Of a stretch of 33,066 nucleotides of DNA, positions 31,036 to 31,605 are shown in pieces (positions within the stretch are counted from its first letter, which is position 1; each line of letters starts with the position of its first letter). This DNA is from an uncultured Pelagibacteraceae bacterium (GTDB lineage: Bacteria; Pseudomonadota; Alphaproteobacteria; Pelagibacterales; Pelagibacteraceae). The stretch covers positions 17,501 to 50,566 of the forward strand of contig CACFQM010000004.1 of the NCBI GenBank assembly GCA_902568425.1, written 5' to 3'. Made by a program: the position numbers and the translations under genes. A model generated the notes under the pieces. That model did not search any database. It was not told where the DNA came from and saw only the letters and a program-made list of their open reading frames with translations.

Positions 31036-31041
31036 AAGTTA

Positions 31042-31064
31042 CTTGCGGAGACAAGCCCCGCAAG
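31042..31064 (-). terminator. GC-rich hairpin between convergent genes; candidate hsp20 terminator
   Basis: Minus-strand transcript CTTGCGGGG-CTTGT-CTCCGCAAG: 9-bp stem with one G-U, 5-nt loop, followed by TAACTTTTA. Plus-strand version has a mismatch. Confidence 0.5.
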
Positions 31065-31074
31065 CAAGGCTACC

Positions 31075-31518
31075 TTATTTAATAGGTATTAGTTTTCTCT
31101 TTTTTATTTCTGGTACGATTTTTTCACAATCGATAGTCAAAAGACCATCTTTTAACTCAGCGCCATTTACCTTTACATCATCTGCTACTGTAAATGATCT
31201 AGAGAATGATCTCTGAGATATTCCTCGATGAATAATCTCGTCACCATCTTTATTTTCAGATTTTTGAACTTTTTTGGTTCTCACTGTTAAAGTATTGTCT
31301 TCATACTCAATTTCAACATCACTTTTGTTAAAGCCTGCAAGAGCTACTTCTATAGCATACTTATCTTTACCTGCTTTCCTGATGTTATATGGGGGATAAT
31401 TTGTTTGTACGCCTAATCCTCCATTCCCTAACATAGACTCGAACTGATCAAACATGTCGTCGAATCCAATGCTGAAAGGTTTTAATGAGTTAAAGACAGA
31501 AATGTCCTTACTTGTCAT
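31075..31518 (-). CDS. Hsp20/alpha-crystallin small heat shock protein; start re-assigned to ATG at 31518
   Basis: ACD-like YAIEVALAGFNKSDVEIEYEDNTLTVRTKK...EIIHRGISQRSFSRSFTVADDVKVNGAELKDGLLTI. AAGGAGGAAAATATG puts a strong SD upstream of 31518; the listed TTG start would translate that SD. Confidence 0.95.
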   Translation of the reverse strand: MTSKDISVFNSLKPFSIGFDDMFDQFESMLGNGGLGVQTNYPPYNIRKAGKDKYAIEVALAGFNKSDVEIEYEDNTLTVRTKKVQKSENKDGDEIIHRGISQRSFSRSFTVADDVKVNGAELKDGLLTIDCEKIVPEIKKRKLIPIK

Positions 31519-31573
31519 ATTTTCCTCCTTTGTTAGCAAGGTTGTTTGTAAGTCCCATTTGGCGACCTACAAT
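31519..31573 (-). promoter_or_regulatory. Candidate ROSE-like RNA thermometer in the hsp20 5' UTR
   Basis: Transcript: TTGTAGGTC-GCCAAATGG-GACTTACAA hairpin, then CCTTGCT-AACAA-AGGAGG hairpin with UUGCU opposite the SD (bulged G), then AAAATATG. Confidence 0.65.
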
Positions 31574-31577
31574 TTCT

Positions 31578-31605
31578 ATATGGTAATTAAAAAAAATAAT
31601 TCAAG
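31578..31605 (-). promoter_or_regulatory. Candidate sigma32 (RpoH)-type promoter for hsp20
   Basis: Minus strand CTTGAAT-N13-TACCATAT, close to CTTGAAA-N13/14-CCCCATNT; positioned just upstream of the 5' UTR hairpins. Confidence 0.65.

Follow-up and report, generated by a model that had tools for sequence, protein, structure and literature searches.

A short two-hairpin ROSE-like leader, predicted to act as an RNA thermometer, precedes hsp20 in Pelagibacteraceae

The hsp20 locus and its promoter

The window, the whole 33-kb stretch of DNA analysed here, comes from a bacterium whose close relatives are recorded in databases as Pelagibacteraceae (SAR11), and carries on its minus strand a small heat-shock gene, hsp20, with a terminator-like hairpin behind it and the end of truA just upstream of its leader (Table 1). 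An initial annotation of this DNA had proposed that the leader is a ROSE-like RNA thermometer, and the leader sequence and coordinates that it gave were exact. We found a single hsp20 copy in the source genome, which is 66% complete. Within the source genus the gene is patchy, with 10 carriers including this one and no match in at least 20 genomes, one of them 95% complete.

Table 1. Features of the hsp20 locus, in coordinates of the window
Feature	Coordinates	Strand	Basis
hsp20, 147-aa small heat-shock protein	31075..31518	-	PF00011, 67.9 bits
hsp20 start codon, ATG	31518-31516	-	
hsp20 leader	31573-31519	-	
Terminator-like hairpin behind hsp20	31039..31067	-	terminator scan
Shine-Dalgarno (SD), AAGGAGG	31524..31530	-	sequence; AGGAG in 139/139 extracted leaders
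Hairpin II, CCUU[G]CU-AACAA-AGGAGG, bulged G at 31537, predicted SD cover	31524..31541	-	fold and conservation
UUGCU anti-SD motif typical of ROSE-like elements	31535..31539	-	conservation over 114 distinct leaders
Hairpin I, UUGUAGGUC[G]CC-AAAU-GG-GACUUACAA, bulged G at 31563	31546..31572	-	fold and covariation
-10 element of sigma32-like promoter, CCATAT	31578..31583	-	sequence and conservation
-35 element of sigma32 (RpoH)-like promoter, CTTGAA	31600..31605	-	conservation and consensus
End of truA	31611		

For comparison we assembled 139 hsp20 leaders from Pelagibacteraceae, some of whose genomes occur in two collections, which gave 114 distinct sequences. They come from at least 11 genera, with Hsp20 identities as low as 43–57%, and 39 diverse leaders among them form alignment A1, on which all counts of pairing and covariation are based.

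The promoter elements upstream of the leader are separated by a 16-nt spacer, an arrangement that by its sequence fits the E. coli sigma32 consensus, quoted as NNCTTGAA-N13-18-CNCCATAT (PMC3669281). The pattern CTTGA(A/T)-N13-19-(-10) recurs in 127 of the 139 relatives, with the 16-nt spacer in 121, and a scan of both strands of the window for CTTGAA-N14-18-CCATAT returned this one occurrence. An rpoH gene is present in the source genome. Transcription would be expected to start ∼4–9 nt 3′ of the -10 element, near 31573, and because the sigma32-like promoter lies immediately upstream, the transcript is expected to begin at, or within a few nucleotides of, hairpin I. The leader length of about 55 nt put forward earlier agrees with this promoter position.

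Hairpin I covaries and hairpin II is nearly fixed

The whole leader folds with a predicted energy of -15.7 kcal/mol in RNAfold, which is lower than all of 200 dinucleotide shuffles (z -3.7), and the fold reproduces the two hairpins described before. The stem of hairpin I is as it had been drawn, except that the drawing had missed the bulged G and the two inner C-G pairs that close the 4-nt loop. Across A1, 96.9% of cells are paired over the whole structure versus 37–63% for controls in which the partner strand was slid. Changes on both sides occur at 8 pairs, and double-change cells number 51 versus 13.4 in shuffles, with none of 500 shuffles reaching the observed value; the shuffles ignore the relatedness of the leaders, which the slid controls do not.

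An alignment of leaders across SAR11, which the initial annotation had proposed for detecting stem covariation, gave different results for the two hairpins. Hairpin I covaries strongly, with compensatory changes in 7 of its 9 scored pairs, 98–100% of cells paired and no equal among 500 shuffles; the column pair 5/27, for example, is AU in 18 leaders, CG in 9, UA in 7, GC in 2 and UG in 2. It is also the only hairpin that RNAalifold predicts unaided, and its bulged G is conserved among SAR11 leaders. The UUGCU/AGGAGG pairing of hairpin II, in contrast, is conserved and barely covaries. All 39 leaders retain five of its six pairs; the outermost pair is C-G in 25 of them and A-U in 2, the other 12 leaving it unpaired, and the U-G pair is replaced by C-G in 2. 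Since hairpin II is nearly invariant, almost no covariation signal can arise there, and what backs this predicted pairing is sequence fixation together with the known ROSE motif rather than covariation.

That fixation is pronounced. UYGCU stands ahead of AGGAG in 138 of the 139 leaders, an arrangement expected by chance in ∼3.5% of mononucleotide-shuffled leaders, and over the 114 distinct sequences the UUGCU columns are conserved at 100/96/100/100/100%, with UCGCU as the sole alternative. The string C-U-Y-G-C-U is thus fixed (Y being U in 96% and C in 4%), while the linker varies freely. Conservation of AGGAG counts for little, as it is expected of any SD. The one leader that departs from this (L139) precedes the gene of a divergent Hsp20 copy with 39% identity, and it is without UYGCU despite a strong SD. 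Second, divergent hsp20 copies were seen in two genomes (G010 and G042).

Hairpin II can form in two registers of nearly equal predicted energy, both of which cover the SD. The ROSE register CCUU[G]CU/AGGAGG, with one bulged G and a U-G pair, is predicted at -2.4 kcal/mol at 37 °C and -6.3 kcal/mol at 10 °C, and the alternative CCUU/AAGG at -2.9 and -6.2 kcal/mol, respectively. Near-equal in energy, the alternative is nevertheless the less conserved of the two, with 89.7% of cells paired versus 94.9% for the ROSE register, and we therefore did not take it as the preferred register. It is conservation that favours the ROSE register read earlier from this leader.

Relation to known ROSE elements

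The Rfam models that the initial annotation had named for its candidate, ROSE and ROSE_2, do not match the leader; the best family is ROSE_3, though far below its cut-off. ROSE (RF00435, cut-off 45 bits) matches neither the leader nor any of 58 genomes of the SAR11 order, and ROSE_2 (RF01832, cut-off 65 bits) gives no match to the leader while scoring 100.4 bits on the positive control, E. coli ibpA. On a 76-base stretch, ROSE_3 (RF02523) ranks first of 4227 families at 21.0 bits (E 0.0079; cut-off 43 bits), aligning with the SAR11 leader over its full length, both hairpins and both bulged G included; the top SAR11 score seen was 26.4 bits. Neither the whole window nor a 251-base stretch gave a ROSE match when scanned, a silence that we attribute to search sensitivity because the 76-base stretch revealed ROSE_3. 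The Rfam cut-offs are a weak test in this class: ROSE and ROSE_3 pass in 0 of 190 of its genomes, and RF00435 was silent in the Caulobacter control, Caulobacter crescentus being listed with a ROSE element (PMC3669281).

Anatomy places the leader among known systems more clearly. The top of hairpin I, consisting of a bulged G, a short G-C stem and a short loop, resembles in our folds that of E. coli ibpA and of three alphaproteobacterial leaders that match RF00435 below threshold (L142, L144, L145). In the E. coli element the likeness is one of identity in kind (bulged G, CC, 4-nt loop, GG), and the three sub-threshold leaders share both the hairpin I apex and the UYGCU/SD hairpin. An apex with bulged G, CC/GG and short loop was observed from SAR11 to E. 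coli ibpA (SAR11 relatives, L142, L144, L145, L216). Two further RF00435 matches (L143, L146) had no clear UYGCU/SD leader in the stretch inspected and were left aside. RF00435 elements have three to four hairpins, whereas the SAR11 leader has only a linker of a few nucleotides in place of the middle hairpin, and it is therefore not a classical ROSE element, in which one or two additional hairpins separate hairpin I from the one that holds the SD. Nor does it have the four U opposite the SD of a FourU thermometer, as UUUU is absent from 31573–31519.

What the leader does have is exactly two hairpins with the SD in the 3′ one, an imperfect pairing of U(U/C)GCU to the SD that leaves a bulged G, and a position ahead of a small heat-shock gene, in its 5′ UTR, behind a predicted sigma32-type promoter. 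The ibpA thermometers of Pseudomonas likewise consist of two hairpins in 61–62 nt with UYGCU and sigma32 control, and of their hairpins only the second melts (PMC3669281). The SAR11 leader shares with these the two hairpins, a length of ∼60 nt, U(U/C)GCU with the bulged G, a sigma32-type promoter and a small heat-shock gene; it differs in being AT-rich, and the likeness is drawn from the published description of the Pseudomonas elements, whose thermometer function is proven (PMC3669281). Comparative evidence thus supports the ROSE-like candidate proposed before hsp20, while its precedent is the Pseudomonas short form and ROSE_3, not the rhizobial ROSE or ROSE_2 elements.

A gene-blind search recovers heat-shock leaders

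To look beyond the family, a covariance model (R1) trained on SAR11 leaders was applied without gene information. It matches hsp20 leaders at E <1e-7 in 27 of 28 sampled Pelagibacteraceae genomes, with no second strong site in those 27, and in the remaining genome (G012) no hsp20 was detected. Across 289 alphaproteobacterial genomes, all of the 11 best matches outside Pelagibacteraceae, with E up to 0.0019, directly precede heat-shock genes: hsp20 in 8 (L191-L196, L198, L201), rpoH in 2 (L197, L199) and dnaK in 1 (L200). Among 12 weaker matches, three also lie before heat-shock genes (L204, dnaK; L206 and L207, hsp20), and the other nine (L202, L203, L205, L208-L213), with no recognised heat-shock gene behind them, were taken as chance matches. 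Protein names were mostly confirmed by Pfam and NCBIfam, those for L196 and L204 being assigned from their own sequence. Since R1 knew no genes, this is the strongest evidence tying the element to heat-shock control.

The rpoH and dnaK leaders (L197, L199, L200, L204) show UUGCU/SD pairing like that of SAR11 hsp20, most of them with hairpin I; L200 is without its bulged-G form. The leader of the SAR11 rpoH gene itself (L217) gave no match to the SAR11 covariance model.

These results bear on the idea that the match of UUGCU to the SD arose by chance and was kept solely through recent common descent. Many of the leaders do come from closely related genomes and hairpin II hardly varies, as such an idea would have it. 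The leaders nevertheless span the genera and Hsp20 divergence given above, with linker and hairpin I rewritten around the fixed motif, and the design is common to other families of the class, so that the cross-family matches already contradict chance descent, to which we give almost no credence.

In a sister SAR11 family (f2, L148-L174), whose genomes are also small, UCGCU stands opposite the SD in a three-hairpin hsp20 leader. These leaders have an extended AU-rich lower stem and are unmatched by the Rfam ROSE models. Given their three hairpins and the shared hairpin I top, the leader of Pelagibacteraceae resembles a ROSE element that lacks its middle hairpin. The suggestion that the form is minimal because the genome is streamlined fits poorly with this distribution: the small genomes of the sister family keep three hairpins, and a 5.4-Mb genome (G517, L198) has the two-hairpin form. 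Loss of the middle hairpin through streamlining is possible, though weakly supported.

Predicted energetics of SD opening

Opening the SD of the SAR11 leader is predicted to cost 6.7 kcal/mol at 10 °C and only 3.1 kcal/mol at 42 °C, close to or slightly below the cost for E. coli ibpA, which drops from 6.6 to 4.6 kcal/mol. With standard energies the SD is modelled as mostly closed even at 42 °C, and likewise for the E. coli element. Other genes of the window have similar opening costs at 20 °C, and hsp20 ranks just 8th of the 29 window start sites by this measure. Because SD-opening energy fails to discriminate among window genes, we dropped it as evidence; the modelled energies are compatible with a thermometer without proving one.

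This unexceptional cost would also suit an explanation in which the hairpins are general 5′-end features, serving mRNA stability or terminating truA, and the pairing with the SD is incidental. Hairpin I is indeed predicted at the 5′ end of the mRNA, and truA ends just upstream. However, no T run follows hairpin I and the terminator scan finds no terminator there, the UYGCU opposite the SD is fixed whereas the linker varies, and the genes behind the blind model's matches are heat-shock genes. We consider this explanation very improbable.

A model for temperature control and a possible protein input

Taken together, we think it very likely that the 55-nt leader of the Pelagibacteraceae hsp20 gene acts as a ROSE-like RNA thermometer of the short, two-hairpin kind, for which a temperature response is predicted. 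RpoH-driven transcription would begin at the base of hairpin I, with sigma32 setting the mRNA level. At normal sea temperature the CCUUGCU of hairpin II, with its bulged G and U-G pair, would cover the SD and limit ribosome binding, and warming would open this weak helix so that Hsp20 is made. Hairpin I would remain folded, keeping hairpin II isolated and perhaps shielding the 5′ end. SAR11 thus probably combines RNA melting with the heat-shock sigma factor to turn on a chaperone.

The leader could instead be a hairpin that represses translation mainly in response to a protein, for example Hsp20 acting on its own leader, with temperature secondary. E. coli IbpA binds its own 5′ UTR via Arg93 and represses its own translation, and both Arg93 and Tyr34 are reported to be conserved among the IbpAs of alphaproteobacteria (PMC10474464). 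Our alignment shows the equivalents of both residues kept in the Hsp20 encoded here; the Arg is found in all usable SAR11 Hsp20 sequences (the pattern left two unscored: in one the Arg can be recognised by inspection, and the second sequence is truncated), 129 of 139 have the Tyr, and the tip of hairpin I is conserved beyond what a mere spacer would need. One conserved residue, however, is no proof of RNA binding, proven thermometers show exactly this pairing of UYGCU, bulged G included, with the SD, and melting and protein binding are not exclusive. A mainly protein-driven leader therefore appears unlikely. Somewhat speculatively, the bulged-G hairpin I could be a docking module for Hsp20, such that the leader would sense temperature through hairpin II and also free Hsp20, and elements of the same kind ahead of rpoH and dnaK elsewhere in the alphaproteobacteria would bind these genes into one post-transcriptional heat-shock circuit; we regard this extension of the thermometer reading as doubtful, if conceivable.

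Significance

The type of device is known, and its SAR11-wide conservation seems to be little documented. Stav et al. 2019 mention ‘a possible RNA thermometer’ in SAR11 HIMB5, with the gene unnamed in the main text (PMC6429828); this candidate may be the same element, and priority is therefore uncertain. Meyer et al. 2009 (PMC2704228) make no mention of heat-shock genes or thermometers. A limited literature search found no earlier report of ROSE-like rpoH or dnaK leaders in alphaproteobacteria, where such elements would extend ROSE control past small heat-shock genes. Few cells on Earth are as numerous as those of SAR11, which possess very few regulators and inhabit an ocean that is warming. 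If our reading of the hsp20 leader is true, the built-in RNA thermometer of this chaperone gene would give SAR11 a temperature sensor open to direct test.
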